Assembly: GCF_004209775.1 (NCBI RefSeq)
Contig: NZ_CP035914.1
Coordinates: 1 to 64,000 of the forward strand
Source of the DNA: Synechococcus sp. WH 8101
GTDB lineage: Bacteria; Cyanobacteriota; Cyanobacteriia; PCC-6307; Cyanobiaceae
Direction of reading: 5' to 3'
DNA: 64,000 nucleotides
Position 1 is the first letter of the stretch; each line of letters opens with the position of its first letter. A model generated the notes under the pieces. It was given only the letters and a program-made list of their open reading frames with translations. It made no database searches and had not been told where the DNA came from. A program made the translations under genes and the position numbers. Below are positions 8,330-55,640 of the stretch, piece by piece.

Positions 8330-8396
8330 CCGGATCGGAAATTCTGAGGGCGGAAGGGGCTCAGCCTACAGATCTCCCCTGGGATGACCAGTCCTG

Positions 8397-10267: not shown

Positions 10268-10308
10268 GGAAAGCGACCGTACAGTTGGGCGACTTCAGGC
10301 ATCCTGCC

Positions 10309-10974
10309 GTGTCCGCTTCTGCTCCAGGTTCCTCGTCCACGCTGCGTCTCGCCCCTGTGCTGCGCTGGCTGGGTCTCACTCTGGTGGTGCTCCTGGTTCT
10401 GCAGATCGCTGTGGTGCTCAGTGGTGCCGACTGGGCCGAGGCGTCGTTTCAACAGCTGCTGATCGAACGGCTCGTCAGTCAGGCCCCGATGGGATTTGTC
10501 GGCTTGTTGCTGATGTTGATTGGGTCGCGCCTGGATCATCCCGTTGCCGATCGGCTGCCGATTCGTTGGGTGGTGTGCGTGCTTTCGGCTCTGCTGGCGA
10601 TCGCCATGATCGCAGTGGTGCCGATGGCGATCAGTGGCAATCAATCGCTCGCCGGTCAGGCGGATCAGACGCTGCAGCAGCGCCGCAGCCAGCTGGAGAT
10701 GGCTCGACAGCAGGGCAAGAATCCCGACAACGTGAAGATGCTGGGCGAGCAGCTGGCCCAGGCCGGGCAACTGCCTGCTGACGCCACCGATGACGACAAG
10801 GCCAAAGCGGCCCGGGAGTTCATCGATGGTCAGCTGCAACAGATGAATGACCAGATTCAGCAGGCAGAGCGCCAGCGCAATCTGGCGATGAATCAGCGTC
10901 GTTTCGGTGGCACTGTCAGCGCGGTGGTGCTGGCCATTGCCTTTGTGTTGCTCGCATTCGCGGCTGTTCTCTGA
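10309..10974 (+). CDS. HpsJ-like membrane protein
   Basis: A 221-aa protein with a hydrophobic N-terminal segment (about 18-38), two more predicted membrane spans (about 59-75 and 86-107), a long polar coiled-coil-like region rich in Gln (about 115-195) and a final span (201-221). This layout resembles cyanobacterial HpsJ-family proteins, first linked to hormogonium polysaccharide secretion. A unicell cannot form hormogonia, so the role here is open. The start is a GTG; the reading frame extends upstream into queG antisense but has no credible start there. Family assignment is tentative. Confidence 0.65.
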   Translation: MSASAPGSSSTLRLAPVLRWLGLTLVVLLVLQIAVVLSGADWAEASFQQLLIERLVSQAPMGFVGLLLMLIGSRLDHPVADRLPIRWVVCVLSALLAIAMIAVVPMAISGNQSLAGQADQTLQQRRSQLEMARQQGKNPDNVKMLGEQLAQAGQLPADATDDDKAKAAREFIDGQLQQMNDQIQQAERQRNLAMNQRRFGGTVSAVVLAIAFVLLAFAAVL

Positions 10975-11024
10975 TCGCTGGTTAGGTTGGTTGGATCACG
11001 TCATCGCAAGGACCGGGACCTTTC

Positions 11025-11774
11025 TTGGTGCAGTCCAACCCCAGACCCGATCTGCCGCTCGGCGCCAGACTTCAGCAGGATCTCAAAAATGATCTGATTG
11101 CTGGTCTGCTGGTGGTCATTCCGTTGGCCACCACGATCTGGTTGGCGACCACGGTGAGCCGCTTTGTGTTGGCGTTTCTCACGTCGATTCCAAAGCAGTT
11201 CAACCCATTCATCACGCTCAACCCACTGCTGCAGGACCTGATCAATCTGGCCCTCGGCCTGACGGTTCCCCTGCTGGGGATTCTTCTGATCGGCTTGATG
11301 GCCCGCAACATCGTGGGCCGATGGTTGCTGGAGTTCGGCGAAGGCACCTTGTCACGGATTCCCCTGGCGGGATCGGTGTACAAAACGCTGAAACAGCTCC
11401 TTGAAACCTTCCTTCGCGACAATTCCCAGCGGTTTCGTCGTGTCGTTTTGGTGGAGTATCCCCGCGAGGGTCTGTTCAGCGTCGGTTTTGTGACCGGTGT
11501 GGTGGGGCCCTCGTTGCAGGCCGAACTTGAGGAGCCCCTGCTCAGTGTGTTCATCCCCACCGCTCCCAATCCCACTACCGGCTGGTACACCCTGGTGCCT
11601 GAGTCATCGGTGCGGGATCTCAATCTCTCGGTGGAGGATGCTTTCCGCACGATCATTTCCGCTGGGATCGTCAACCCGGATGAACGGGAAGCCCCTGTGA
11701 ATCGCAGTTTTTCCAGTCTTCTCTCCCAGTTGCGCGCCTCCTCCCCGTCGTCGTCCCGTGCTTCGGAAGCTTGA
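11025..11774 (+). CDS. DUF502 family membrane protein
   Basis: A 249-aa protein of the DUF502 family, with two membrane spans near the N-terminus (about 24-50 and 72-95). A conserved soluble part follows, containing GTLSRIPLAGSVYKTLKQLL and FSVGFVTGVVG. Function is unknown; plant homologues are membrane-associated. The start is a TTG at 11025, with a GTG at the next codon as an alternative. It lies 50 nt after the HpsJ-like gene and 30 nt before nusB, likely in one transcription unit. Confidence 0.85.
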   Translation: MVQSNPRPDLPLGARLQQDLKNDLIAGLLVVIPLATTIWLATTVSRFVLAFLTSIPKQFNPFITLNPLLQDLINLALGLTVPLLGILLIGLMARNIVGRWLLEFGEGTLSRIPLAGSVYKTLKQLLETFLRDNSQRFRRVVLVEYPREGLFSVGFVTGVVGPSLQAELEEPLLSVFIPTAPNPTTGWYTLVPESSVRDLNLSVEDAFRTIISAGIVNPDEREAPVNRSFSSLLSQLRASSPSSSRASEA

Positions 11775-11804
11775 TCTTCCTGTGCCCACCTTCGCTTGAC
11801 CTCC

Positions 11805-12449
11805 ATGCAGTCCCGTTCCCTGGCCCGTGAGCTGGCGCTCCTGGTGCTCGGTCAGCTTCCTGACCGTGATGGCCAGGTGATGGCTGATGTCTCCCTGGAG
11901 AGCCTGCTCCAGAAGGCGCTCGACACCCTGATGCAGCACTGGCGGGAGACCTTGGATGGCTGTGCCGCTGATCTGGAGAAGGCCCAGCAGCATCTGCTTG
12001 ACAGCGAACTACAGGATGGTGGCGATCGAGGCGGCACACAGGTTGCTGTGCGTGACCAGCTGCAGGCGTCGATCGGCGCGGCCGAACAGGTGCTCAATGG
12101 TCTCTCCGGCTGCCTGGAGCTGCCCCGTTTGCTGGCGCTGGCTGATCAGGATCAGGTGCGTGATGACGCCCGCCGGCGGGTGGCTCTCGTGCTGGAGCAA
12201 CGCAGCGCGATCGATGCCCGTCTGGATGGGGTGATGGAAGGCTGGCGCCTCAGCCGTCTGCCACGGATTGATCGCGACATTCTCCGCTTGGCGGTGGTTG
12301 ATCTCACCGCTCTCCACACGCCGGCAGCGGTGGCCTGCAATGAAGCTGTGGAGCTGGCCCACCGTTACAGCGATGATCAGGGCCGGCGCATGATCAACGG
12401 TGTTCTGCGCCGACTGCAGCAGGCGGCAACGACTGCCGCCAGCTTCTGA
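11805..12449 (+). CDS. nusB: Transcription antitermination protein NusB
   Basis: RNA-binding factor that with NusE (S10) binds boxA and supports rRNA antitermination. The 214-aa protein begins MQSRSLARELALLVLGQLP and has the typical C-terminal helical motif RIDRDILRLAVVDL and NEAVELAHRYSDDQGRRMING. It is longer than the roughly 140-aa E. coli protein because of an inserted helical region (about 30-110), which I regard as normal for cyanobacteria. A TTG nine bases upstream is an alternative start. ftsY follows 40 nt downstream. Confidence 0.93.
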   Translation: MQSRSLARELALLVLGQLPDRDGQVMADVSLESLLQKALDTLMQHWRETLDGCAADLEKAQQHLLDSELQDGGDRGGTQVAVRDQLQASIGAAEQVLNGLSGCLELPRLLALADQDQVRDDARRRVALVLEQRSAIDARLDGVMEGWRLSRLPRIDRDILRLAVVDLTALHTPAAVACNEAVELAHRYSDDQGRRMINGVLRRLQQAATTAASF

Positions 12450-41709: not shown

Positions 41710-41781
41710 AGCGGGTGACCGGACTCGAACCGGCGACGTTCAGCTTGGGAAGCTGACATTCTACCACTGAATTACACCCGC
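41710..41781 (-). tRNA. tRNA-Gly (anticodon CCC)
   Basis: Cloverleaf drawn by hand: acceptor GCGGGTG/CACCCGC (7 bp) with discriminator U, and D-arm around TTCAGTGGTAGAA. The anticodon stem TCAGC/GCTGA encloses loop TTCCCAA, giving anticodon CCC for GGG codons. The T-arm loop is TTCGAGT. CCA is not encoded. 72 nt including the discriminator, the normal size for tRNA-Gly. Confidence 0.95.
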
Positions 41782-44265: not shown

Positions 44266-45852
44266 ATGTCCTCAACCCAGTCCGATGGCCAGCGCAAGCC
44301 GGCCATCGTCATTCTTGATTTCGGTTCCCAATACTCCGAGCTGATTGCTCGGCGCGTGCGTGAAACCGAGGTGTATTCGGTGGTGTTGGGCTACAGCACC
44401 TCCGCCGAAGAGCTTCGCGAGTTGGCGCCAAAGGGAATCATTCTCAGCGGGGGCCCCAGTTCGGTGTACGCGGAGGGAGCTCCCCTCTGTGATCCGGCGC
44501 TCTGGAGCCTGGGGGTCCCGGTGCTCGGCGTCTGTTACGGCATGCAGCTGATGGTGCAGCAGCTGGGGGGCCGCGTCGAGGCGGCCACCGGCAAGGCGGA
44601 ATACGGCAAGGCCCCTCTGGTGGTGGACGACCCCACCGACCTGCTCACGAATGTGGACGACGGCTCGACGATGTGGATGAGCCACGGTGATTCCGTTGAG
44701 GCGTTGCCGGAAGGCTTCGTGGGCCTCGCTCACACGGCCAACACGCCGATGGCGGCTGTGGCCGACCATCAACGCCGGCTTTACGGCGTGCAGTTTCACC
44801 CCGAAGTGGTCCATTCCACCTGCGGGATGGCCCTGATCCGCAACTTCGTGTATCACATCTGCGGTTGTGAACCCGACTGGACCACGGCGGCCTTCATTGA
44901 AGAGGCCGTGAGGCTGGTGCGGGAGCAGGTGGGTGAGAAGCGCGTGCTGCTGGCCCTATCGGGTGGTGTGGACTCCTCCACGTTGGCCTTTCTGCTCAAG
45001 AAAGCGATCGGCGATCAGCTCACCTGCATGTTCATCGATCAGGGATTCATGCGAAAGGGGGAGCCCGAGTTCCTCATGGATTTCTTCGATCGCAAGTTCA
45101 ACATTCATGTGGAGTACATCAACGCGCGCAAGCGTTTTCTCGACAAACTCGCCGGCATCACCGATCCTGAGGAGAAGCGCAAGATCATCGGCACGGAGTT
45201 CATCCGGGTGTTCGAGGAGGAGAGCAAGCGCCTTGGCCCCTTCGATTACCTCGCCCAGGGCACCCTGTATCCGGATGTGATTGAGAGTGCCGGCACCAAC
45301 ATTGATCCCAAGACCGGCGAACGGGTGGCCGTGAAGATCAAGAGCCACCACAACGTGGGCGGTTTGCCGAAGGATCTGCAGTTCAAGTTGGTGGAGCCGC
45401 TGCGCAAGCTGTTCAAAGATGAGGTGCGCAAGGTGGGCCGCAGCCTCGGTCTGCCGGAGGAGATCGTGCGTCGCCATCCCTTCCCCGGACCGGGCCTGGC
45501 CATCCGCATCCTCGGTGAGGTCACCGATGAGAAGCTCGACTGCCTGCGCGATGCCGATCTGATCGTGCGTGAGGAGATCAAGGAGGCTGGCCTTTATCAC
45601 GAGATCTGGCAGGCCTTTGCCGTCTTGCTGCCCGTCCGCTCCGTGGGTGTGATGGGCGATAAGCGCACCTATGCCTGGCCGATTGTGTTGCGTTGCGTAT
45701 CGAGCGAAGACGGCATGACCGCGGATTGGTCGCGTCTGCCGCCGGAGCTGATGGAGCGGATCTCCAACCGGATCGTCAATGAGGTGAAGGGGGTGAACCG
45801 GGTGGTGCTCGACATCACCAGCAAGCCACCCGGAACAATCGAGTGGGAGTAG
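44266..45852 (+). CDS. guaA: GMP synthase (glutamine-hydrolysing)
   Basis: Converts XMP to GMP. The 528-aa protein has the class I amidotransferase nucleophile in GVCYGMQL with partner HPE, the ATP-pyrophosphatase loop [14 protein letters not shown], and a dimerisation domain ending GTIEWE. Complete. Its last 15 nt (including the stop) are the left attachment repeat of the island inserted downstream, so the last codons may have been supplied by the element. Confidence 0.97.
45838..45852 (+). repeat. Left attachment repeat (attL)
   Basis: ATCGAGTGGGAGTAG, the end of guaA (codons I-E-W-E-stop). It matches 54949-54963 at 14 of 15 positions; the one difference (GAG/GAA) is synonymous, so either copy gives an intact guaA end. 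Confidence 0.8.
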
Positions 45853-45890
45853 TTCAGGGGGTCTAATCCCTTACTACAACTACCTGTAGG

Positions 45891-45971
45891 GGGTTTCACC
45901 TGCGTTTCACCCCGTGTTTGGGGTGACTGGGGACAAGGGGTTTGGAAGGTCGGTTTCACCCGAGTTTCACC
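45891..45971 (+). repeat. Left-end paired GTTTCACC motifs
   Basis: Two pairs of GTTTCACC: 45893 with 45904, and 45953 with 45964. Members of each pair are exactly 11 bp apart and the pairs 60 bp apart, all in the same orientation. The first pair lies in a 22-bp stretch repeated perfectly at 54744-54765. These resemble arm-type binding sites of a tyrosine recombinase. The rest of the 282-nt gap before the integrase holds the GTAGAGA control region. Confidence 0.75.
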
Positions 45972-46044
45972 CAATGCCCTGTCTCCGTCTCTACAGAGAT
46001 GTCGTCCAACTCTGGTTTTCTCTACGGGTGTGTCTCTACGACGT

Positions 46045-46119
46045 GTAGAGAATTCGTAGAGAACAAGTCCCTTCCTAAACAGCACTTTTCTACGACACAA
46101 CGTAGAGAAAACGTAGGAA
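46045..46119 (+). promoter_or_regulatory. Control module upstream of the integrase gene (GTAGAGA repeats)
   Basis: Four GTAGAGA-type half-sites: 46045, 46056, 46102 and a degenerate one at 46113. They form two pairs with 11-bp spacing, 57 bp apart. An inverted TTCTACG arm faces the third site. The interval 46081-46110 is 29/30 identical to 48561-48590. It ends 16 nt before the integrase start, so it probably covers its promoter and operator. Confidence 0.65.
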
Positions 46120-46134
46120 AATACCTATGTCGTC

Positions 46135-47532
46135 ATGGAAGGGAGAACTGAAGTGGGAAGCAGAGGAAACAATCAGACCTCCTATGCCCTGTATGAGGAA
46201 CTGATGCACCTACGGGTTAGTCCCGAAGCACAGGTGCCTTACCTGTACAAACGAAGGGACAAGCAGGTGCATCTCCCTGTTGAGGAACGCACCTATCAAC
46301 TCCGCATCCCTGTCCCCAACACCAAAGGTCTTAGGAAGTCTCTGAGGACCTCTGACAGGTCTGCTGCCATAGAGAAAGCAGCAGAGGAGGTTCTGGAACT
46401 CAAGTACGTTCTGAAGAACGGAGGGAGTGTCCTGCCTTTGTCTGTGGAGGACCTGGTGGAAAAGTTTCTCCAGACCAAACGTGCCCTCATACGTGGGGAA
46501 TGGGAGGGGAAGGAAGACGCAGGACGCAGAAGCATCACCAAGGAGAGGTATGCCCTGATTGCAGGGAAACTGCGGAACTACTTGGTTCCGTTCCTTGGTG
46601 CCAAGTCAGATGCCCGCAGCATTCCCTATGCCAAGTGGAAAGAGTGGCAGACGTGGAGGGTTGAGAGCAGGCACACCCGCACTGGTGGAAGGCCAAAAGC
46701 AATCACCCTCCAAAACGAGATGGGAATGATTAGGGAGTGCTGGAAATGGGGGATGGAGAACTCCCATCTGCCCCTCTCTCCAAAACTCCCCTTCCAGGAC
46801 GAGAACCTGGTGACTGACGACAAGGTGAGGAGGGACACCTGGGAACCCGATGAGTGGAAACCCTTTAGACGTCGTCTCCGTGAGTGGTTGAAAGAGCAGC
46901 AGCAACTACCCCAGGAGGAGTTCTGGGATGCCTGGGTTGCCTATCAGATGGTGTTTTTCCTTGCCAACTGCGGGATGCGTGTTGGGGAACTCGTGAAGGT
47001 CAAGAGGAAGGACCTTACGTTTTTTCAACGCAACGTTGGGAAGAATGGAGAGGACGAAACGATGCTTTGCTGCCTCGTTCAGGTTCATAAGTCCAATAAA
47101 ACGGGTGCCCGTGAGGTGAATGCGATGGGTGGTCTCTTTGCCCGTCGTGTCTGGGATAAGTCACAGCATCGTTCTATGGATGATTTTCTGTTCTGCCATT
47201 TGGATGGAACCCCATTCACTACCAAGCAGTTCAGAACTCAGTTCCGAAGGATGATTGCTTTCACAAAGGAGGAAGAGAGGACTGGCAAGCACCTGGTTCC
47301 ATACGCACTAAGACACTTTTATGCATCCATCCGTTTGCAGAACGGCACGTCTCGTTCTGCACTTTGTGAAAATATGGGATGTACAGAACCTTATCTGCGG
47401 AAGCACTATTCCCACTACCTCAACCGACTTGCGACTGCTGACCTAATGAGGATGAATAAGGATATTGGTCTTGGTGGAAAGGTTATTCCTGAAGGAGAAG
47501 ATTTCCTCGTTCCTGATGTGATGCTTGATTAG
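46135..47532 (+). CDS. Tyrosine recombinase (phage-type integrase)
   Basis: A 465-aa integrase that probably moves the island. The N-terminal part (about 40-200) is an arm- and core-binding region; the catalytic domain follows. Arg I is in NCGMRVGELVKVKRKDL. Box II is YALRHFYASIRL (Tyr in place of the usual first His). The likely nucleophile is the Tyr in LRKHYSHYL. It lies beside attL and reads inward. Codon use is less GC-rich than in the host genes. Its stop overlaps the convergent 318-aa gene by 4 nt. Confidence 0.9.
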   Translation: MEGRTEVGSRGNNQTSYALYEELMHLRVSPEAQVPYLYKRRDKQVHLPVEERTYQLRIPVPNTKGLRKSLRTSDRSAAIEKAAEEVLELKYVLKNGGSVLPLSVEDLVEKFLQTKRALIRGEWEGKEDAGRRSITKERYALIAGKLRNYLVPFLGAKSDARSIPYAKWKEWQTWRVESRHTRTGGRPKAITLQNEMGMIRECWKWGMENSHLPLSPKLPFQDENLVTDDKVRRDTWEPDEWKPFRRRLREWLKEQQQLPQEEFWDAWVAYQMVFFLANCGMRVGELVKVKRKDLTFFQRNVGKNGEDETMLCCLVQVHKSNKTGAREVNAMGGLFARRVWDKSQHRSMDDFLFCHLDGTPFTTKQFRTQFRRMIAFTKEEERTGKHLVPYALRHFYASIRLQNGTSRSALCENMGCTEPYLRKHYSHYLNRLATADLMRMNKDIGLGGKVIPEGEDFLVPDVMLD

Positions 47533-48485
47533 AGTAGACCACTTCTTTTGAGGATGGTGTTATTCCAGATTGCCAACTCTTTTCTTTTGCCTAATACCTC
47601 TTCTAAACGCAACTTGTAGTTGTATCGTTGTGCTCTGTCTTCTATGCTTGCCATTAGATATTGCACTTTGGAGACGTATGCCTGTCCGTGTGTCTCCCAG
47701 AACTTGTCTCTGCCTCCATCTGTCTTGATGAGGAACCCTGTGAATTGACGTAGGGGTGTGTCTCGCACCTCATCAATGGTCTTGAGGTTGAACTGCTTCT
47801 TCACGTCCTCAGGAAGTTGCAAGAACCACTTGTGCGTGAGTTCTCCTTCCAGGACTTCTCTCCAGAAGGCAGCACGTTTGCGTCTCTCCTCTTCTCTCAG
47901 AGATGCAATGCCTGCTGTGGTTGCTTGCCTCAGGACCACTCCGTGCTCCTGACACACCCTTCTGAGTGCCTCCTCGAGTGCCTTGGATGCCTTCCCTGCC
48001 AGAGGTGTCTCTTCGGGTCTGAAGACACTCCAGAGGTGTTCTTGCTTGGCACCCCAACGACCTTTGTCCCCATCTGTTGCTGCAAGTGCAGGGAACCTGA
48101 CTTGCTTGGCATATGCCCTTGCTGCACTGACGGAAGTAGCAGGAGTGATGCTCTTGCTTCTGATGCCCGTGACCAGTTCCGCAGGGGTAAGGGAGCAGAG
48201 GACGTGGATGGTTGAGTAAGAGGCAGGGAGACCCTTAACCACGTCTCTACGTTCCTTGTCGGTCAGTTGCTTCAGGGTCTTGCCGATGACCCGCAACTTG
48301 GAGAACACCTTGTCGTTGATGCCTGTCTCCTCCCTGAAGAGGGAGAACGTTGGTCTCTTCAGACGTGTTGCTGTTGCATCTATCCCCAGGCACAGGGTCA
48401 CGATTTGCTCTGGGGTGCCTGTGTATGGGTTCTCTTCTGCCAGTCGCACGAAGGTGGCAAAACCTTTCTCCAGTTGGTCTGACAC
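47529..48485 (-). CDS. Orphan 318-aa island protein, possible DNA-binding regulator
   Basis: No family recognised. Residues about 50-125 are rich in short helices, including FREETGINDKVFSKLRVIG and LPASYSTIHVLCSLTPAELV. They loosely resemble ParB/KorB-type helix-turn-helix regions. The C-terminal half is Lys/Arg/Glu-rich and helical. It starts with GTG, 40 nt from the GTAGAGA module at 48525 and divergent from the small genes there. That makes it a candidate regulator of that module, which is inference. Confidence 0.7.
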   Translation of the reverse strand: MSDQLEKGFATFVRLAEENPYTGTPEQIVTLCLGIDATATRLKRPTFSLFREETGINDKVFSKLRVIGKTLKQLTDKERRDVVKGLPASYSTIHVLCSLTPAELVTGIRSKSITPATSVSAARAYAKQVRFPALAATDGDKGRWGAKQEHLWSVFRPEETPLAGKASKALEEALRRVCQEHGVVLRQATTAGIASLREEERRKRAAFWREVLEGELTHKWFLQLPEDVKKQFNLKTIDEVRDTPLRQFTGFLIKTDGGRDKFWETHGQAYVSKVQYLMASIEDRAQRYNYKLRLEEVLGKRKELAIWNNTILKRSGLL

Positions 48486-48524
48486 GTCACCCGTCTTCCG
48501 TATGGAGACACTCTACTGCGGAAC

Positions 48525-48599
48525 GTAGAGATTTTGTAGAGAAAAGACCCAAGGACAAAGAGCACATTTCTACGACACAACGTAGAGAAATTGTGGGAT
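48525..48599 (+). promoter_or_regulatory. Second copy of the GTAGAGA control module
   Basis: Half-sites at 48525, 48536, 48582 and a degenerate one at 48593, with exactly the same 11-, 46- and 11-bp spacing as the module at 46045-46119. The inner 30 bp are nearly identical in the two copies. A TATATA sequence follows at 48600, a plausible -10 for the downstream small genes. It also lies in the leader of the divergent 318-aa gene. Confidence 0.65.
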
Positions 48600-48635
48600 T
48601 ATATAAGGGTCAAACAAAGCAAAGGAGATTTCCTT

Positions 48636-48878
48636 ATGTCTAATTCAAAAACCCTCACAATCAAGTTTGATTCTGCTCGAAGTGCTAAGTCATTCATGGA
48701 TGACATTACCGATCTGATTTACTGGAATGATCAGGAAAGGGATTCTGATGATCGTTGTTTTGAGGGTCCTGATGAGTCCAATCAAATTGGATTTTCGTGG
48801 GATGGTGATACCTTTCTCTCTGCTAATTCTGCAAGTCGGCAAATCCGTCAAGAGGTGTATGGGGTTTGTGGTTTCTGA
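48636..48878 (+). CDS. Small island protein (80 aa), unknown
   Basis: An acidic 80-aa protein (DDITDLIYWNDQERDSDDR) with no recognised family. The start at 48636 is supported by AAAGGAG about 10 nt upstream. It is the first gene after the second GTAGAGA module and TATATA box, with another small gene starting 1 nt after its stop. An acidic phage-like inhibitor or decoy role is possible but unproven. Confidence 0.65.
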   Translation: MSNSKTLTIKFDSARSAKSFMDDITDLIYWNDQERDSDDRCFEGPDESNQIGFSWDGDTFLSANSASRQIRQEVYGVCGF

Positions 48879-48879
48879 A

Positions 48880-49143
48880 ATGAACTCAGCACAGGTCAAT
48901 CGCAGGATTGAGGACTACCTTCGGGACCTTGCTGATGAAGGAACCTTCCGTATGCGTAAGAAGACAGGGCATCCTGTCTGTGTTGCTTCCTATGGGGGTG
49001 AACAGAGATCTTTCACCCTTTGCTCATCCCCTGGAGGGAACTACCAGAAGTATGCGGTCTGGAACCTGAATCGGTTCGTGTCGTCTCTCCCTTTGGAGGA
49101 GGCACAAAGGTTCTCTCTACATAAGTTCTTCGAGGACCTCTGA
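48880..49143 (+). CDS. Small island protein (87 aa), unknown
   Basis: An 87-aa protein with NSAQVNRRIEDYLRDLADEG at the N-terminus and a basic middle (FRMRKKTGHPVCVASYGG). No family recognised. It begins 1 nt after the previous stop, so the two are co-translated. Its GC content is intermediate, similar to the integrase region. Confidence 0.6.
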   Translation: MNSAQVNRRIEDYLRDLADEGTFRMRKKTGHPVCVASYGGEQRSFTLCSSPGGNYQKYAVWNLNRFVSSLPLEEAQRFSLHKFFEDL

Positions 49144-49226
49144 CCCTCGTAAAACCCTGGTTTTGGGGACCAGGAGACAGAAGGTAATAACTCCCCTTTT
49201 ATTCACTTACTATTGGAGAAAATCTT

Positions 49227-49418
49227 ATGAATTACACACCAGAACAACTTGATGCGATGAAGGCAAAAACTCAATGTCTTCATAATGCTCGGAATGCCCT
49301 TAAGAAAGCACTTCGACAGGTTTTGAACTCACCCGAGCATGAACGACTTTCCAACTACTGCAAGGCAGATATCCTGTTGGACTTGGAGAACAATGGTGAA
49401 TATAACCCTCTCGGGTGA
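49227..49418 (+). CDS. Small island protein (63 aa), unknown
   Basis: A 63-aa helical protein (LHNARNALKKALRQVLNSPE) ending NYCKADILLDLENNGEYNPLG. GGAG lies about 9 nt before the ATG. A terminator follows at 49464. A decayed copy of its C-terminal half appears at about 49730-49820. Unknown function. Confidence 0.6.
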   Translation: MNYTPEQLDAMKAKTQCLHNARNALKKALRQVLNSPEHERLSNYCKADILLDLENNGEYNPLG

Positions 49419-49463
49419 TTGATCTAATAGGGGATCAGATAATACCTCCTCCTTGATTGCTTG

Positions 49464-49501
49464 ACCCCCTGGGAACTCAAAAATCCTGGGGGATTTTTTT
49501 A
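49464..49501 (+). terminator. Rho-independent terminator
   Basis: Stem CCCCC-T-GG pairing with CC-T-GGGGG (one T-T mismatch), followed by seven T residues. It closes the rightward small-gene cluster of the island. Confidence 0.8.
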
Positions 49502-49717
49502 GACATATGGATTTTTAGTTCGTTTGAGGATGCATACTTTTGTAGCACTAAAGGCCCCATTGATTTTTATCGTATTATCTGCCATGTCACGAATACCTTC
49601 ATTCGTGTACATAGTTTACAGGTAAAGACAAATTTAAAAAGATTGAAGTTCCAGAAAATGGTGCAAAAATGAAAATTCTCTTATGCACTCGAACTATGAT
49701 CCTAGGATGTAAGTCAA

Positions 49718-49825
49718 ATGGGACTAATAAAAGTTGGCAAATTGCTAAAGCATAAGCAACTGAACAATTTCACAAAGACAGAAGTGCTCCTGGATCTTCA
49801 AAGCAATGAGAAATCATTTGTTTCC
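49718..49825 (+). pseudogene. Decayed paralogue of the 63-aa island gene
   Basis: The frame reads HKQLNNFTKTEVLLDLQSNE, which aligns with HERLSNYCKADILLDLENNG of the 63-aa protein (identical or similar at most positions). The homologous N-terminal part is missing and the frame continues into unrelated sequence antisense to the lipoprotein gene. The stretch from 49502 to 49717 is AT-rich with nothing recognisable. Confidence 0.4.
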
Positions 49826-49838
49826 TCTGCGATGCAAT

Positions 49839-50348
49839 TCATATTTGCTTGTATTGCAATGCTTCACAGAGAGAGTCTTTTGATACTGTTAGGATCGGTA
49901 AAGTGTTCTGATAGTATTGAATGCATATATTGCCCTTTTTAGTTACTTCATGAATTGATTGACTGGTCAATATGCTTTTCCCGTATGCAGTATCAGGGAA
50001 AATCATAAACTTAAATGCATTTGCATCTCCCTGATTGCTTTTATGAATGAGTATATCCGTTTTGCCAATCTCAATATTGTTCAATCTTAGGTAGCATGAG
50101 TTGTATTTTGACCACATTCCATATGATGTTTTAGCATCAATCTCTCCATCTGAGTTGCAACTGCTCAAAATTTTGTTTCTATAATCTTCATCAAAAAGTA
50201 ATCTCTCTTCATCTGATCGAATAGATTTGTCAACTTTTTCTGTGTCTTTTGCCTCTGGAAGAGATTTGCTTTGATTTATCGAGGAGCATGAAGTTAATAA
50301 AATAGCAAGGAGAATTAGTGGTTTATGCACTTTCCTCCTCTGATTCAT
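49839..50348 (-). CDS. Putative lipoprotein of the AT-rich island core
   Basis: A 169-aa protein with a lipoprotein signal: basic N-terminus, hydrophobic KPLILLAILLTSC with the lipobox Cys at position 21, then a Ser/Lys/Asp-rich tether. The mature domain has three further cysteines. No family recognised. Strongly AT-rich. Its start overlaps the 3' end of the RHH gene by 26 nt, so it is the last gene of the leftward unit. Confidence 0.65.
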   Translation of the reverse strand: MNQRRKVHKPLILLAILLTSCSSINQSKSLPEAKDTEKVDKSIRSDEERLLFDEDYRNKILSSCNSDGEIDAKTSYGMWSKYNSCYLRLNNIEIGKTDILIHKSNQGDANAFKFMIFPDTAYGKSILTSQSIHEVTKKGNICIQYYQNTLPILTVSKDSLCEALQYKQI

Positions 50349-50511
50349 TTTCTCTATGATCTAAAATTTCAATATCTGAACTTTGTTTTTCTTTGCAAAA
50401 GGTATACAATGCTTCTCTGGTTACAGAAGAAATGGTTCGATTTTCGATAAATGCAAGTTTTTTAAGAGAAAGATGTAAATCATCGGACACCAAAAGAGTT
50501 ATTCTTCTCAT
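50323..50511 (-). CDS. Ribbon-helix-helix (CopG-like) protein, 62 aa
   Basis: Small DNA-binding protein: a strand MRRITLLVSDDLHLSLKKLA followed by two helices (FIENRTISSVTREALYTFC), the MetJ/Arc/CopG pattern. Such proteins are plasmid copy-number regulators, antitoxins or autorepressors. The acidic tail (HRENESEEESA) is variable. It lies just after the 8-bp tandem repeats, which could be its operator. The adjacent gene encodes a lipoprotein, not an obvious toxin. Confidence 0.7.
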   Translation of the reverse strand: MRRITLLVSDDLHLSLKKLAFIENRTISSVTREALYTFCKEKQSSDIEILDHRENESEEESA

Positions 50512-50615
50512 GTGTTTTTAACCACTACACCAAACTCTCATGTTAGAAGCAGGCATGTCAAGTTGCAGCACTGCATTTTGCTGCTTTATGCAGTTTTCGC
50601 ATTATGTGCTTTGTG

Positions 50616-50651
50616 GCAGCACAGCAGCACAGCAGCACAGCAGCACAGCAG
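50616..50651. repeat. 8-bp tandem repeat GCAGCACA x 4.5
   Basis: Four perfect copies of GCAGCACA plus GCAG, in the gap between two leftward genes. A single extra GCAGCAC lies at 50565-50571. In this AT-rich setting it could be an iteron-like protein-binding array or a slippage-prone promoter element. Confidence 0.85.
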
Positions 50652-50653
50652 TT

Positions 50654-50863
50654 TTACTCTCTTAAACTGCTATTGACTATGTTTTCTCCAAACAATTTGT
50701 TCTCTTCTGCTTGAAGGTGTTCTTTTTTCCAGTGCGATATTTGTTCTTTGAGATAGTTTATTGATGATAAATCTTCCTTTTGCTCTTCGTCCAACGCATA
50801 TAGTTTTGAATAGTAAAACTCAAGTCGTTCTTCGATTTCACGAATAGAATATGTCTTTTGCAT
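50654..50863 (-). CDS. Small coiled-coil island protein (69 aa)
   Basis: A 69-aa protein predicted to be almost entirely helical (SIREIEERLEFYYSKLYALD, then Glu/Lys-rich helices). No family recognised. It starts 12 nt after the stop of the 43-aa RHH gene and ends 2 nt before the tandem repeats, in the leftward gene row of the AT-rich core. Confidence 0.55.
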   Translation of the reverse strand: MQKTYSIREIEERLEFYYSKLYALDEEQKEDLSSINYLKEQISHWKKEHLQAEENKLFGENIVNSSLRE

Positions 50864-50875
50864 TTCTAAATCTCG

Positions 50876-51007
50876 TTACCTTTTGTGTTTAGTGTTGTAA
50901 GAGTCTCTGATTAGATCTTCCAGAAGATCCTCAATAGAGATTCTTCTCTTTTTAGACAACTCTACAAGCATGTGATAATGAACGTTGCTTAACTTGATTT
51001 GTTTCAT
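50876..51007 (-). CDS. Ribbon-helix-helix-like protein, 43 aa
   Basis: A very short gene read directly from the minus strand: ATG at 51007, TAA at 50876. The protein starts MKQIKLSNVHYHMLVELSKK and continues RRISIEDLLEDLIRDSY, fitting a strand plus two helices as in minimal RHH proteins. It lies 6 nt after the 63-aa gene and 12 nt before the coiled-coil gene. No strong Shine-Dalgarno is visible, so translation may be coupled. Confidence 0.5.
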   Translation of the reverse strand: MKQIKLSNVHYHMLVELSKKRRISIEDLLEDLIRDSYNTKHKR

Positions 51008-51013
51008 TGTTAA

Positions 51014-51205
51014 TCAGATAAAAGTCAGATCCTTCTGCTGCTGATGCACTTTGTAAAGATACTTAAGTGCATATTTGTGTAGATCAGAACGAGTAGGTAT
51101 GCATAAGTCGTCTATAAGTGATTTTTCAAGATTCCAGAAAGCACCTGCTTCTCTCTCCTTATAAGACATCTGGAATCTATTTTGTTTCTTGTTTAATACT
51201 GGCAT
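51014..51205 (-). CDS. Small island protein (63 aa), unknown
   Basis: A basic 63-aa protein (PVLNKKQNRFQMSYKEREAG) with a helical C-terminus (RSDLHKYALKYLYKVHQQQK). AGGAG lies 8 nt before the ATG, giving a confident start. First gene of the leftward unit running to the lipoprotein. No family recognised; could be a nucleic-acid-binding or regulatory peptide. Confidence 0.6.
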   Translation of the reverse strand: MPVLNKKQNRFQMSYKEREAGAFWNLEKSLIDDLCIPTRSDLHKYALKYLYKVHQQQKDLTFI

Positions 51206-51579
51206 TCTTTGTGACTCCTTTTGGTGTATTGATGTTCAAGTGGGGTTTTTCAGATTATCCTGTAACTTTATTGGTCTCAGTCTAGGATCACCAGACATAC
51301 TTTCTTCAAACCAATTCTAAATTACTTTCTTAATGCTTTCACTCACCTTCGGTTCGTGAAAATGCCTGCGGCATGAACTCTCTTGGGACTTTATGGTTAA
51401 GACCAAAGGGACAATTTCCTGAAACCCCTTATGTATTATATAGACAAATTAGAAGTTTAAGATGCACTCTTGCCTTGAATTCACTATGTTTACATTATAA
51501 TTGAAATTTGATGCTTTGTCAAGTCTATTTGGCTCAGTAGGGTGTTGACTTATGTGGTGTCTTGTGTCATAATTCACTC
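51206..51579. other. AT-rich non-coding gap with two small hairpins
   Basis: 374 nt between divergent island genes. I see no gene. Two dyads sit side by side: TTCAC...GTGAA (51338-51360, with an inner ACC/GGT) and ATGCC-TGC-GGCAT (51362-51374). The gap should contain the divergent promoters of the leftward unit and the zinc-ribbon gene. Confidence 0.5.
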
Positions 51580-51972
51580 ATGACTGAAGAGTCAATAATA
51601 TGCATTTCACACTTAAATCTAATGAATATCACGGATTGCGTTAAACAGATCAAAGATGCCCTTGTCATTTCTGTCGAAGGTAAAACAGTCTATCCAGAAG
51701 ATTTCCCAATTAAAGATGGTTGGGGGATAGGTTTTAAGTTTGCTTGTCCATATTGCTGTCATAGAAAGCAGAGACCATCCAAGAAAAGAGAAAAGTGTGC
51801 GAGGATTTACCCAGTAACAGGTTGTTATACCTATAGATTTAGTTGCAATAAGTGTAATCAGTCTATGAGTATTCACAAATTTCTTGAAAACAAATTCCCT
51901 TGTGTATATCAAAGATACATGAGGGAAAAGATGATGCGGCAGAAAGACTATCGTCCAAAATTCAATGATTGA
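51580..51972 (+). CDS. Zinc-ribbon protein of the island (130 aa)
   Basis: A 130-aa protein with two CxxC knuckles, FACPYCCHRKQRPSKK and RFSCNKCNQSMSIHKF, about 35 residues apart, forming a zinc ribbon. The arrangement recalls the zinc-binding module of CHC2-type primases, but no TOPRIM catalytic region is present, so it may be a nucleic-acid-binding fragment or regulator. The ATG at 51580 is chosen; 51622 is possible. AT-rich. Confidence 0.6.
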   Translation: MTEESIICISHLNLMNITDCVKQIKDALVISVEGKTVYPEDFPIKDGWGIGFKFACPYCCHRKQRPSKKREKCARIYPVTGCYTYRFSCNKCNQSMSIHKFLENKFPCVYQRYMREKMMRQKDYRPKFND

Positions 51973-52071
51973 TTTTTCCCCTTTGATTTGCGTCAAGCAA
52001 GATGGTTTTCATCTTCGGTTCTACAGTAATAATAGATTGCCTGAGAATTCCAAAGAAGAGATAGAAGATAT

Positions 52072-52431
52072 CTAGTTCATGATGCTTGTTTTGCATTTTG
52101 CCTCCTTTGTCCCAATGTCCTCCCCTTTCTTGTCGAAATTTGCAAGCAACTCGTTTGTTTTTGCATTGTAAATGAAACTTGCTCTTCCCATTGCGTCGTT
52201 GCCCATAGATGCGTAGACAATTTCGTCTATCTCTGCTGATGGCATTACTTCGTTGTAGACTTGATTTCCTATCTTGACGAAGACCAATTCATTTTTCTTG
52301 GGTCTGTAGATAAAGGTTTCTTCGTTGGTGCAACTAATTAGGATTTGTGGATTGTCGGAGAGGGTCTTGTAAGCAACTGCTCCTGCTGCTGCAACAACTG
52401 CTGTTGCTGTTGCCAAAAGGATTTTCTTCAT
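52072..52431 (-). CDS. Small exported or membrane-anchored island protein
   Basis: A 119-aa protein with an N-terminal hydrophobic signal (KKILLATATAVVAAAGAVAY) and a mature part with two cysteines (LISCTNEE and EAKCKTS). The beta-rich central region has the look of a surface or inhibitor domain. No family recognised. It lies 8 nt after the serine recombinase stop and is probably co-transcribed with it. Confidence 0.6.
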   Translation of the reverse strand: MKKILLATATAVVAAAGAVAYKTLSDNPQILISCTNEETFIYRPKKNELVFVKIGNQVYNEVMPSAEIDEIVYASMGNDAMGRASFIYNAKTNELLANFDKKGEDIGTKEAKCKTSIMN

Positions 52432-52439
52432 CGGACTGC

Positions 52440-53012
52440 CTATGCTTCCTTGATGATGCGGGTAATGGTTGCAAGAGCAAGTCCTGTCTGCTCCTTGATT
52501 GACCTGTAGGACTCCCCTTCCTTACGGAGACGAAGCACCAAGGACTCCTTCTTCCCAGTGGTCTTGGGTCTTCCACCAAGGTTCCCTCCTGTTCTTCTGC
52601 GGTGCTCCACGGACTCTCTGCTCCTCTCTTGGATCAGAGATCTCTCCACCTCAGAAAGTCCCGTAAGCAGTCCCACGACCAGGGGTGCCATCTTTCCCAG
52701 TGCTTGCGTATCGATCAGACCATCCAGGGTCTTCACATGGATCCCCTGCTGTTGGAGGTCGTTCAGTCGGTTGATCACTTCGACCTGAGACCTGCCCAGT
52801 CGATCCAACTTAGCAACGCAGAGAAGATCTCCTTTGCGGAGGACTGACAAGCAAGCACGGAGTTGGTGTCGTTGATCCAGGGTCGTGGTGCTGGAGACCT
52901 TCTCAGAGAAGACCTCTTCGCAACCTGCTTCCTTCAGTTCTTGGACCTGAGCATCCAGACCCTGCTGTTGGTGGGTCGTGGATGTCCTTGCGTAACCGAT
53001 TTTCCGTCCCAT
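52440..53012 (-). CDS. Small serine recombinase (resolvase/invertase family)
   Basis: A 190-aa resolvase/invertase. The nucleophile is Ser11 in IGYARTSTTHQQQGLDAQ; other conserved pieces are LCVAKLDRLGRS and LTGLSEVERSLIQERSRES. A C-terminal HTH ends the protein (SYRSIKEQTGLALATITR). The ATG at 53012 is chosen over an extension to 53081, which would cover the site cluster just upstream. It may resolve cointegrates or invert a segment of the island. Confidence 0.88.
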   Translation of the reverse strand: MGRKIGYARTSTTHQQQGLDAQVQELKEAGCEEVFSEKVSSTTTLDQRHQLRACLSVLRKGDLLCVAKLDRLGRSQVEVINRLNDLQQQGIHVKTLDGLIDTQALGKMAPLVVGLLTGLSEVERSLIQERSRESVEHRRRTGGNLGGRPKTTGKKESLVLRLRKEGESYRSIKEQTGLALATITRIIKEA

Positions 53013-53013
53013 C

Positions 53014-53150
53014 TGTTCGGAAAGAGTGAGCCTTTCTAGAATTACAACCCGAACACCCTTTCCGAACAACATCGCACCCAAAAAACTTAGTTCCGTCGGT
53101 TGTTCGTTTTTGTCTGAGGAACTCCTGAGTCTCCGAACAGCAACCGAACA
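53014..53150. repeat. CCGAACA site cluster upstream of the serine recombinase
   Basis: Within 137 bp are TGTTCGG (53014) and CCGAACA at 53049, 53062, 53132 and 53144, plus a partial GGTTGTTCG near 53098. TGTTCGGAAAG (53014-53024) and CTTTCCGAACA (53058-53068) form a perfect 11-bp inverted repeat. The position directly before the recombinase gene suggests a res-like recombination site or operator. Confidence 0.65.
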
Positions 53151-53197
53151 CCGATCTCTTGCTATGACTAATACGCATGTATTCGTGGAGGGTGATC

Positions 53198-53446
53198 ATG
53201 GGAGACGGGTGGTTGTCGGACCCCGAAACGACCTGGACCTATCGGTTCCATCGGGATGACAAGTCCTGGGTGAGAGACCCCAAGGTCTTTGTGGATATGG
53301 GTCGTCCGATGTCCGATGGGTCTGCTGCTCTGCTGAAGACTCGTCGGCACATACGAAGGGAGCAAGCAGAGTCCATGTGGAAGGACCTGGTGCGTAAGGG
53401 GTGGAAGAAGGTCCCTGCTGTCTGGGGTCCTGACGCAGAACCCTGA
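53198..53446 (+). CDS. DUF1651 family protein
   Basis: An 82-aa protein with the DUF1651 pattern: GWLSDPETTW, a central DDKSWVRDPKVFVDMGRP, LLKTRRHIRREQAESMW, and an ending KGWKKVPAVWG. The family is largely restricted to picocyanobacteria and its function is unknown. The ATG at 53198 has GGAGG just upstream; an ATG at 53177 is less likely. The ISAs1 element inserted 13 nt past its stop. Confidence 0.78.
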   Translation: MGDGWLSDPETTWTYRFHRDDKSWVRDPKVFVDMGRPMSDGSAALLKTRRHIRREQAESMWKDLVRKGWKKVPAVWGPDAEP

Positions 53447-53459
53447 GACCGCACCAGTC

Positions 53460-53469
53460 CCTAATGCAC
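53460..53469 (+). repeat. Target site duplication of the IS, left copy
   Basis: CCTAATGCAC, repeated exactly at 54734-54743 on the other side of the insertion sequence. Confidence 0.85.
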
Positions 53470-54733
53470 CAGGGCTGCCTGAAAGTCATTCGGAATTCGC
53501 CTGCGCGAGCCGAACCCCACCCAACGCCAGCATCCCTTTGATGTCGTAGGCCAGCTCCCGGAAGCCCTGGCGGATTGAGCGATAGCCACCACGGCGCAGC
53601 AGGTTCATCACCACGGTTCGCAGGAAGGAGAACACGCCGACACCGGTCCGATTGGTGTAGCGGTGTGCGTCCTCACCGAGCTGCGTATCGCGCACCCAGT
53701 GCCACTCGTTCTCAATGCTCCATCGCTGACGGACCAGTCGCAGCAGAGCATCTGGTGTGGTGCGCAGGCTGGTGATGAATCTGTGGCAGGCGATGTCCCG
53801 CTTGCCTTTGAGGGTCGTGCTGCTGGTGATCACCTCCACGATCCAGGCGCTGCCTGGCCAGTTCGCCTTGATGTGCTCTGGCGCCTCTTTGGCCTTGAGT
53901 TCCCAGCGTGTCTGGCGTCCGTGCCGCTTCTCGACATCCGTTGCTGCAAAAGGGATCTTGCGCTTTCCCTCGAACTGGCAGCCGATCTGCCGGTACAGGA
54001 TCTTTTGGTTGGATTTGACGGTCAACAGGAGGTCGGCCCCCTGCTCCAGGCACCAGCGAAAAACGCCTGTGTCGTGTGCAGTGCGTCGGCCTGGATCAGG
54101 ACGCCATTGAGATCAAGCGTGCTGAGCAGCTCCTTGAGCGCTGCCTTCTCACTGGACTCGTGGGTGTCATAGGTCGTCTGGGCCAACGCCACCCCAAGGG
54201 CTCGGGCGTAGACGGTGACCTGGGCAACGAACCGGTGGTTGCCGTCATCTGTCTCGATGGCGGAGCCCCGCAGGGTTTTCCCGTCGCAGACCAGTTGGTC
54301 CAGACCCTCGGCGCCACCTGGGATCTGGCTGATCATCCAGGCCTGCAGCACCTCGCCAAACTGCTGAAGATGCGCCTTATTGAACAGGTAAAGGAAGGTG
54401 GCATCTGACGGCCAGCGCTTGAAGTTCAGGTCCAGGGCCTGGTTCAGCGCCTCCCGGTGCCGCTTGGCAAAAGCCTCCAGATCGCGAGAGCTCCTGCAGC
54501 CGCTCAGGATCCCAAGCACCGCCACCAACAGCAGGAACCACTGCGGGTAACGCACGCCACGCCGGTAGCGGCCGTCGGGAATGGCCTTGAGAAAGTTGAT
54601 CAGATCATCCGGTGCGCTCAGATCAGCTGCAACGGAGGCGGTTTCGGGCATCGGGAGCGGTGAGACCCGCTGACGAAACCCAATGGTGACAGGCCCGCCA
54701 AGGACTACAGGGACAGACTTTTAGGCGGCCCTG
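53470..54733 (-). mobile_element. ISAs1-family insertion sequence (1264 bp)
   Basis: Terminal inverted repeats CAGGGCTGCCTGAAAGTC (left) and CAGGGCCGCCTAAAAGTC (right, complement) match at 16 of 18 positions. A perfect 10-bp target duplication flanks them. The element encodes one transposase frame broken by a 1-nt shift. It is GC-rich like the host genes, unlike the island core, which suggests a recent arrival from a host-like genome. Confidence 0.9.
53486..54651 (-). pseudogene. ISAs1-family transposase, split by a -1 shift
   Basis: N-terminal part from ATG 54651 (DLINFLKAIPDGRYRRGVRY, DGKTLRGS, QADALHTTQAFF) runs out of frame after a TTTTTC run. The continuation in the next frame reads RWCLEQGADLLLTVKSNQKI and then RWSIENEWHWVRDTQLGEDA to a TGA inside the left inverted repeat. 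A -1 slip at the T-run (plus-strand 54059-54063) or one missing T explains it. Fused length about 388 aa, normal for ISAs1 DDE transposases. Confidence 0.85.
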
Positions 54734-54743
54734 CCTAATGCAC
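54734..54743 (+). repeat. Target site duplication of the IS, right copy
   Basis: CCTAATGCAC, identical to 53460-53469. Confidence 0.85.
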
Positions 54744-54892
54744 GGGTTTCACCTGCGTTTCACCCGACGGGGACACGATTTCTCTGCGTCTGAAGACGTT
54801 CCTTCTGCTTCACGACTTCTCTATAGATGCGTCGTCAGACCCCTCTAGAACCCTCTGTGAGAGGTGCTTCTGGGTTTCACCCCCGTTTCCCC
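54744..54892 (+). repeat. Right-end paired GTTTCACC motifs
   Basis: Pairs at 54746/54757 and 54874/54885 (the last is GTTTCCCC), each 11 bp apart, in the same orientation as those at the left end. 54744-54765 equals 45891-45912. The non-coding stretch from the IS to 55028 also holds a CTGGGG...CCCCAG dyad (54900-54925, 14-nt loop) and the right attachment repeat; I see no gene in it. Confidence 0.72.
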
Positions 54893-54948
54893 ACCTAAAC
54901 TGGGGTTGAATCCACGAGTCCCCAGCAGGACGGGTGCTGAACTGGACT

Positions 54949-54963
54949 ATCGAGTGGGAATAG
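54949..54963 (+). repeat. Right attachment repeat (attR)
   Basis: ATCGAGTGGGAATAG, a 14/15 copy of the guaA terminus at 45838-45852. Read in the guaA frame it still encodes I-E-W-E-stop. Confidence 0.8.
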
Positions 54964-55028
54964 GGCCGATCAGGGGCTGGTGATCCAGGCCCATCATCGA
55001 TACCCTGAGCCCCCGGCCTGATTGTGTT

Positions 55029-55640
55029 GTGACCGCTGCCCAACAGCAGGACCAGCAGCTGCAGCGGCGTCTGCAGCAGGACAGCATTCAGCTGGCCGGT
55101 AAGACGATCTACATCAATCCGTTTCTCTACTGGCGCCGTTTCGACAGCAACACCGATCGCTGGTTGCGGGAGCCCGGTCAGCTGGGTGAAGAGCAGATCC
55201 GTAGCAACCGCGGTCGCTTTTATCCCGAACTGGCCTGGGATCTGCTCGACGAGGACGCCGTCCGCATCAAGGACGGTGCCGTGGAGATGTTTCTCAAGAG
55301 CCTGGAGCTGATCAGTACCTTTCATCCCGAGCTCACCTCCGGCCAGCTGCTGGAGGTGGAGCGCAAGATGGCGGTCACCAAGAAGCGCTCGTTTGAGCGC
55401 TGGGTGGAGAAGTCGTATCGCCGGCGCTTCAAGCAGGAGGTGCGGGAGCGGCGCCGTTTCGCCCGCGACCGTTTCCTGCGGGGGTGGCGGGAGTGGCTGG
55501 CGCTCGACACCACCCATCAGGCGATCGCTCCCCTGCTGGCTTTGATCGTGTTGGCGGCGGTGGGGGGGTGGACCCTTGGGGCTTCACAGTCGAGTTGCCC
55601 CACATTGATGCTGCCCGCAGAGCAGACTGGAGAGCGCTGA
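55029..55640 (+). CDS. Conserved cyanobacterial protein with a C-terminal membrane span
   Basis: A 203-aa protein: charged, helical body (FLYWRRFDSNTDRWLREPGQ, then an Arg-rich region about 120-165) and one C-terminal membrane span (IAPLLALIVLAAVGGWTLGA). GTG start. It is the first host gene after the island, so in an island-free relative it should follow guaA directly. Function unknown. Confidence 0.75.
   Translation: MTAAQQQDQQLQRRLQQDSIQLAGKTIYINPFLYWRRFDSNTDRWLREPGQLGEEQIRSNRGRFYPELAWDLLDEDAVRIKDGAVEMFLKSLELISTFHPELTSGQLLEVERKMAVTKKRSFERWVEKSYRRRFKQEVRERRRFARDRFLRGWREWLALDTTHQAIAPLLALIVLAAVGGWTLGASQSSCPTLMLPAEQTGER

Follow-up and report, generated by a model that had tools for sequence, protein, structure and literature searches.

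An integrative element family at the 3′ end of guaA in Cyanobiaceae, viewed from Synechococcus sp. WH 8101

Introduction

Much of the ecological variety of picocyanobacteria has been gained via islands, whose means of transfer are poorly known. In Synechococcus sp. WH 8101 the end of guaA, the essential gene for GMP synthase, occurs a second time downstream, raising the question of whether the DNA between the two copies is a mobile element and, if so, how it moves and replicates. We analyzed this locus in the window, a 64,000-nucleotide stretch of the WH 8101 genome (NZ_CP035914.1, positions 1 to 64,000; the genome, G000, is a single contig of 2.63 Mb), for which an initial annotation had proposed an island integrated into guaA. 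We consider it highly probable (roughly 0.9) that 45838–54963 is an integrative element belonging to a guaA-specific family in Cyanobiaceae and operating by the mechanism proposed below; the element and its site are well supported. The case is made by comparison of loci, which brings out empty and filled sites, core repeats at both ends, a recurring arm-site geometry, tandem accretion and, as the sequences suggest, transfer between species.

Integration site and element family

The last 15 nt of guaA including the stop codon (ATCGAGTGGGAGTAG, attL) recur at 54949–54963 as ATCGAGTGGGAATAG (attR), and the single change is synonymous (GAG to GAA, both Glu), as initially annotated; over 18 nt there are two mismatches. 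This is the sole site with at most two mismatches to the guaA end in the 12 kb 3′ of the gene, and none was obtained in 60 Markov shuffles. Between the copies lie the previously noted inward-reading tyrosine recombinase and a serine recombinase, which Pfam identifies as Phage_integrase (PF00589) and Resolvase (PF00239), and an AT-rich core in which G+C falls from ~0.65 to 0.34–0.40.

The host gene that flanks the right end, starting at 55029, has a homologue in 34 of 60 genomes (WH 8101 included), and loci were obtained for 29 of the 33 others. The site is empty in 15 of these 29 relatives, with the guaA core followed by a spacer of 61–69 nt and then the 55029 homologue. They include the nearest relative, G018, in which 69 nt without an element separate guaA from the 55029 homologue, the flanks are 96.4% (upstream) and 94.1% (downstream) identical to those of the window, and no match to the window integrase was found. 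The spacer is 156–305 nt long in four relatives, and a further seven are filled, carry a remnant, or were not resolved (G019, G011, G016, G027, G032, G009 and G021). In the other three (L014, L016 and L025) the two genes are ~1.2 kb apart, and this interval, which has no integrase, may be old cargo. Across the relatives' loci with the full stretch, the last 150 residues of GuaA are 84.7–99.3% identical.

A profile search of 400 family genomes with the integrase matched 16 genomes at E ≤ 1e-20, close homologues of the window protein having 57–67% identity. A full-length integrase stands directly 3′ of guaA in eight genomes (the window, G011, G016, G019, G062, G064, G355 and G378), a ninth such element is found in Prochlorococcus AG-355-P18, and broken integrases occupy the same position in G129 and G021. 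All nine elements share one gene order: core, integrase on the plus strand, a gene for a 318-residue protein on the minus strand, and, closing the right end, a minus-strand serine recombinase. In G016, whose element is spread over two contigs, the recombinase is on the second of these, beside the 55029 homologue. The right-hand core is present in all nine, hence in the eight full copies other than that of the window, and in the G021 remnant; G019 and G016 have one further mismatch. The two refuting conditions named in the initial annotation, a lack of empty sites and absence of the right-hand repeat from other copies, were both checked, and neither applies. Elements with the integrase and both cores in one stretch span 5.7–13.5 kb. 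The serine recombinases can be distant, that of the window sharing ~26% identity with its G019 and G016 counterparts. Degraded copies were recognized in G021, G027, G032, G129 and G307. In G027 (L068) integrase fragments 3′ of guaA lie between two copies of the 55029 homologue. The element genes of G019 and G016 are nearly identical (integrase 96.1%, HUH protein region 98.8%, 318-residue protein gene 97.5%, serine recombinase 94.1%) versus 82.6% for guaA and 76.7% for the 55029 homologue. We interpret this contrast in DNA identity as the outcome of recent interspecies transfer to the same site, and thus as a sign that the element moves. In G378 (L117/L154, contig 13), six cores between guaA and the 55029 homologue delimit five tandem units, only the first having an integrase by the model used. 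The other four include a 0.94-kb unit with arm pairs at both ends, a possible nonautonomous mini-element, and the last unit encodes several repetitive proteins that are TPR-like by eye.

We propose that the tyrosine integrase would recombine a circular form with the end of guaA, within its last codons, using arm sites specific to each element besides the core sites (GAGTGGGARTAR), and that guaA would be left intact since the element brings a copy of the gene end. G018 carries G at the G/A difference between the cores, as attL does, which favors exchange at the stop codon, the ancestral host base being uncertain. The initial statement that the element rebuilds the end of its host gene holds in kind, but the element can supply no more than the stop codon and perhaps a few bases before it, and GuaA is unchanged. 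Excision is directly testable, since the target, a protein gene, is fixed, attB, attL and attR are defined, and attP is predicted as 54928–54963 joined to 45853 onward.

Integrase and arm-type sites

The catalytic residues R282, K322, R393 and Y425 of the window integrase are retained by alignment to a Protein Data Bank (PDB) profile, and the first His of the HxxR motif is replaced by Tyr (Tyr390 in the window) in all nine integrases. The nearest solved relatives by profile are 3nkh ("Integrase") and 6en0/6emz ("Int protein"), the latter presumably the Tn1549 integrase. The window integrase had no match in phages and one distant match in plasmids.

Pairs of an 8-nt motif with a period of 11 nt flank the cores. 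Of 15 units, 10 have such a pair, with one mismatch allowed, at an offset of +52 to +57 from the core; nine of 15 have a second one around +115, and, among the pairs listed, nine of 15 (G011 not among them) have one ahead of the right core. In a chance control of 12 units, from which the remnants of G021 and G032 and a G064 unit of 176 nt were excluded, nine had the +52 to +57 pair versus 0.2 expected, and none of 15 empty sites had it. The motif itself differs between elements: GTTTCACC in the window and G021, GTTTCACG in G011 and G355, GTTTCACA in G064, ACTACCCC in G019 and G062, ATCACACA in AG-355-P18, and GTTTGTTG, GTTTGTCA and GGTTTCCC in three tandem units of G378. Similarity between arm motifs follows most closely that between the N-terminal 100 residues of the integrases (Mantel r 0.81, p 0.0006), and r is lower, at 0.60 and 0.59 (p 0.002 and 0.004) for the rest of the protein, in a set of n = 9 that includes the near-identical G016 and G019 and is uncorrected for relatedness.

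Arm-site binding is a property of lambda- or Tn916-type integrases. By analogy, we read the pairs as arm sites whose specificity appears to drift while the guaA core stays fixed. A fixed core with changing arm sites offers a natural series on how integrases keep same-site neighbors apart.

Replication module

The initial annotation reported no recognized replication, packaging or conjugation gene. No relaxase or conjugation gene was found among the ten open reading frames (ORFs) of the window scanned with Pfam, and the HUH protein of its relatives is absent from the window; the statement calls for revision as to replication, for which candidates exist both in the window and in its family. An HUH profile matched in seven of the nine guaA elements, the window and G355 being without. 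Four aligned HUH proteins have F[LI]TL[ST]F, LHLH and Y[VL]NK stretches in common, which we take to be HUH motifs; three of the four pass the Pfam cut-off for REP_ORF2-G2P (PF23343) and the fourth fails it. The HUH frame of G019 has an in-frame stop. Searches with the HUH protein gave only four weak matches in phages (E 0.8) and no true match in the PDB. G064 and G378 also encode proteins of 665 and 663 residues, the former with a sub-cut-off match to DUF5906.

In place of the HUH protein, the window and G355 encode a protein of ~117–130 residues with two cysteine pairs. One of the orphan small genes of the initial annotation turns out to be a homologue of a phage primase zinc domain. A profile of ten such proteins matched T4 gp61 in the PDB (E 9e-8). 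Six of the ten members matched PHROG 47, DNA primase, at E ≤ 1 (best 1.8e-8), and nine matched PHROG 451, of unknown function, at the same threshold (best 7.8e-7). Aligned by hhalign with four cyanophage gp61 proteins, the profile covers gp61 residues 2–103 (98.8%, E 4.6e-17), and the window and G355 proteins alone give 95.4% (E 1.8e-8). Conversely, for a model built from the four cyanophage gp61 N-termini, the ORF at 51580–51972 was the sole match in the window (E 3.3e-4). Its fold, predicted with a low predicted local distance difference test score (pLDDT 65), has 8gao_G and 8dvf_H as top matches (probability 1.00, template modeling scores 0.55 and 0.52, but E only ~0.02). A member of the tRNA-Ser type matched Synechococcus phage S-H25 (7e-8). 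The catalytic half of gp61 had no match in the element loci searched with it; full-length gp61 recognized in L205 served as positive control for this test.

In T4, according to PMC10359460, the zinc domain of gp61 reads the template and binds the gp41 helicase via a motif after the ribbon. The stand-alone zinc domain may link the element to infecting T4-like cyanophages, for replication or for interference. The main argument for a replication role is that it alternates with the HUH protein (two versus seven of nine, part of the split G016 element being unseen). We propose an exchangeable replication module that would be either the HUH protein or a captured T4-type primase zinc domain tied to an infecting T4-like cyanophage. 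A tentative extension, which we hold somewhat less probable than its negation, is that picocyanobacterial integrative elements, the guaA family included, are satellites of T4-like cyanophages. The helicase-binding, template-reading primase domain would dock on the phage helicase upon infection, recruiting the phage replisome to the excised element or derailing phage replication; HUH-bearing relatives would start their own rolling-circle replication, and element-specific arm sites would let several elements share guaA without mutual excision. As a specific partner, the zinc-domain profile points to the helicase of T4-like cyanophages. Scans of viral contigs with the integrase profile, the HUH profile, the window zinc domain, the 318-residue protein and the tRNA-Ser-type zinc domain found no relative; with all five negative, this collection gives no sign of packaging.

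Partner protein and putative operators

The 318-residue protein, the conserved partner of the integrase, matched in 25 of 400 family genomes (fragments counted), and its gene also occurs in loci with other integrases or with tRNA-Ser. Named contigs with homologues belong to Synechococcus sp. AG-679-A04 and Prochlorococcus sp. AG-355-P18 and AG-409-O23. Two further loci (L152 and L153) are on contigs labeled Gammaproteobacteria metagenome-assembled genome CPC27, possibly misbinned. No match was found in phages or plasmids at E ≤ 0.01. The AlphaFold model is all-helical (pLDDT 84, predicted template modeling score 0.44) and has no significant Foldseek match. Residues 1–131 align with Spo0J/ParB domains at Z 7.8–8.0 (root-mean-square deviation 3.0–3.2 over 109–115 residues; VIA), suggestive of a ParB-like fold, such Z scores being able to reflect mere shared arrangement.

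Six of the seven window copies of GTAGAGAA are inside the element, upstream of the integrase and the 318-residue protein genes; before the integrase gene the motif forms an operator-like cluster with TTCTCTAC, and a 47-nt block upstream of the one gene is 85% alike to that upstream of the other. G378 has one copy of GTAGAGAA only. From this arrangement we infer that the ParB-like protein may bind the repeated sites and so regulate both the integrase gene and its own. The serine recombinase, for its part, may resolve multimers.

Alternative explanations

Several observations weigh against the integrative element and mechanism proposed here. Five of the 16 integrase-matching genomes were not seen to have the gene beside guaA: G137 and G354 have fragments away from it (14 kb and ~1.5 kb viewed on each side), and G305, G287 and G423 have distant homologues with no guaA in the short flanks viewed. 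The integrase fragments of G027 are near guaA and not adjacent to it. The arm offset of +52 to +57, at which nine of the 12 control units have a pair, was picked after pairs had been seen. In the list that contains the ParB matches, the Raf1 alpha domain scores higher (Z 8.6). The window zinc domain alone, searched by tblastn in phages, gave E 7 as the best among the matches listed, and Pfam is silent on its ORF, as it is on the zinc domain of cyanophage syn9 gp61. Excision, a circular form, induction, packaging and transfer were not observed. Finally, the window copy is without the HUH protein of most family members and carries an insertion sequence (IS), so that it may be a poor mover.

That the 15-nt repeat is a chance match in ordinary variable DNA, for which its shortness could be cited, has a negligible probability, being refuted by the empty sites, the recurrence of the cores, the geometry of the arm sites and the horizontal transfer. 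Less easily set aside is decay of the window copy into an immobile remnant of a once mobile family, in favor of which are the ISAs1 insertion near the right end, the missing HUH protein and the degraded copies in five other genomes. The integrase, 318-residue protein, serine recombinase and zinc-domain frames are nevertheless open, neither core has been lost, four arm pairs, of which one has a mismatch, are kept, and the IS and its target duplication stop just short of the right arm pair; decay is the less likely reading. We think it unlikely that the element is a tycheposon with a target other than tRNA: the 318-residue protein gene and zinc domain do occur in tRNA-Ser loci and the AT-rich core is common to another island of the same genome, but the target is a protein gene.

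A further alternative concerns the zinc-domain protein, which could be antiphage cargo with no part in element mobility, occupying the helicase or template of a T4-like phage and blocking its replication. The retained zinc ribbon, followed by a stretch aligning with the helical hairpin through which T4 gp61 binds the gp41 helicase, would suit this role, as would the presence of the domain in many different islands; the missing catalytic half in the element loci tested is as expected of a dominant-negative decoy. PADLOC, on the other hand, has no match for the window ORF, and alternation with the HUH protein suits replication better. We regard antiphage cargo as a minority possibility, about as plausible as decay.

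Relation to known elements

guaA is not a new target for bacteria. The initial annotation stated, rightly, that integration at its 3′ end is known elsewhere, and islands with the core GAGTGGGA are described in PMC9376610 and PMC7775301. The window element resembles these proteobacterial islands (GIsul2, ICERspD18B and those of Song et al. 2012, cited there) in using the guaA 3′ end, within GAGTGGGA, and in having the integrase at one end; the map legend of GIsul2 also lists a resG gene. The islands described there have a P4-type integrase with neighboring AlpA, and the integrative and conjugative element also has conjugation genes. The window integrase, by contrast, passes the Pfam cut-off for Phage_integrase only, there is no AlpA or relaxase among the ten window ORFs scanned, the arm sites diversify, and the replication module is an HUH protein or a primase zinc domain.

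Among picocyanobacterial elements, the Prochlorococcus tycheposons share with the guaA element a tyrosine recombinase, variable cargo, a size within 4–200 kb and the type of host but, as presented in PMC10872708, insert in tRNA genes. No tRNA gene is at the target of the window element, the only tRNA of the window being at 41710–41781. The tRNA-Phe/tRNA-Cys element with a new integrase, as presented in PMC10187409, is likewise an island of picocyanobacteria that has a tyrosine integrase and, in many cases, a small serine recombinase; it differs in target. Some loci with the zinc domain combine a serine recombinase with tRNA-Phe or tRNA-Cys. Tycheposons and VEIMEs are listed as proposed satellites in a review (PMC11389934). 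With T4-type gp61 (8dvf, 8gao, and cyanophages syn9 and S-SSM5) the zinc-domain protein shares the N-terminal zinc ribbon and the following hairpin region, unlike gp61 being without the catalytic half. The listings of our literature searches showed no picocyanobacterial guaA element; prior notice is possible in Hackl et al. 2023 and Eppley et al. 2022.

Other features and related islands

The features of the window copy are given in Table 1. Of the ten ORFs scanned with Pfam, seven had no match at E ≤ 0.1, the remainder being Phage_integrase, Resolvase and DUF1651. Rfam gave no match in 45700–55100. The ISAs1-family IS has two reading frames; its inverted ends, each 18 nt long, agree at 16 positions, and the target is duplicated over 10 bp (CCTAATGCAC). 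Because of this insertion ~1.27 kb of 45838–54963 is a later addition. A short array of GCAGCACA units lies at 50616–50647 inside the AT-rich core.

Table 1. Coordinates of the guaA element of Synechococcus sp. WH 8101 and its flanks in the window
Feature	Position	Strand	Remarks
guaA (GMP synthase), host target gene	44266–45852	+	
attL core ATCGAGTGGGAGTAG	45838–45852	+	guaA end including stop
Left arm-type site pair 1	45891–45912	+	GTTTCACC twice, period 11, +55 from core start
Left arm-type site pair 2	45951–45972	+	
Operator-like cluster of GTAGAGAA/TTCTCTAC before the integrase gene	46018–46123	.	47-nt block recurs at 48557–48603
Tyrosine integrase, 465 aa	46135–47532	+	PF00589, E 6e-10; reads inward
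318-aa orphan, conserved integrase partner	47529–48485	-	Residues 1–131 ParB/Spo0J DNA-binding-domain-like (suggestive)
Operator-like repeat upstream of 318-aa gene	48525–48603	.	
87-aa orphan	48880–49143	+	80% identity in G355 guaA element
AT-rich core module	49559–52406	.	86.9% identity (2915 nt) to second island of G000 with another integrase
69-aa orphan	50654–50863	-	Also in G011 element
63-aa small protein	51014–51205	-	51% identity in G355 element
Stand-alone homologue of T4-type primase gp61 N-terminal zinc domain	51580–51972	+	Second possible start 51622, used in searches
Small serine recombinase	52440–53081	-	PF00239, E 1.3e-32
DUF1651 protein, cargo	53177–53446	+	
ISAs1-family insertion sequence, later insertion	53470–54733	-	Target duplication 53460–53469 / 54734–54743
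Right arm-type site pair	54744–54765	+	Identical to left pair 1
Right arm-type site pair nearer core	54872–54893	+	One mismatch between 8-mers
attR core ATCGAGTGGGAATAG	54949–54963	+	
Host gene flanking site (203 aa)	55029–55640	+	

A second island of the same genome (L190 ~4671–12339, in G000:C1:620000-639500) is at the 5′ end of a gene that Pfam identifies as 2-oxoacid dehydrogenase E2. It has its own integrase, which the search with the window integrase did not pick up, a serine recombinase, a ParB_N plus DNA-methylase protein and the shared AT-rich core, and it is missing from G018, where the site is empty. Sharing of the core by the two islands suggests that this module travels between integrases and targets. 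The ISAs1 copies at window 53470–54733 and L190 13674–14938 are 100% identical over 1265 nt, which points to recent transposition.

Among 400 family genomes the zinc-domain profile matched in 48, and G000 has three of the matches; at least one match (G465) is a full-length gp61 instead. In that cyanobacterial assembly, the gp61-like primase at L205 8651–9637 is phage DNA or contamination. Of 18 further zinc-domain loci, hand-picked from a longer list, 15 contain a recombinase of the tyrosine or serine type in the stretch viewed (~20 kb at most), by an integrase model widened on the same loci. The three without are L205, L194 (cut by a contig end) and L206 (with tRNA-Ser). For scale, 19 genomes (WH 8101 and 18 of the same genus) have 1–10 Phage_integrase matches each. 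PADLOC returned nothing for nine of ten proteins, that of the window zinc-domain ORF among them; an ORF of G009 hit two weak models for Cas12h (E 0.002), taken as chance. No second copies of tRNA-Ser ends (≥14 nt) were found in L120, L121, L123, L124 or L128. Loci L120 and L121 have an integrase together with the 318-residue protein gene and the zinc domain, and their tRNA-Ser is at the side far from the integrase.

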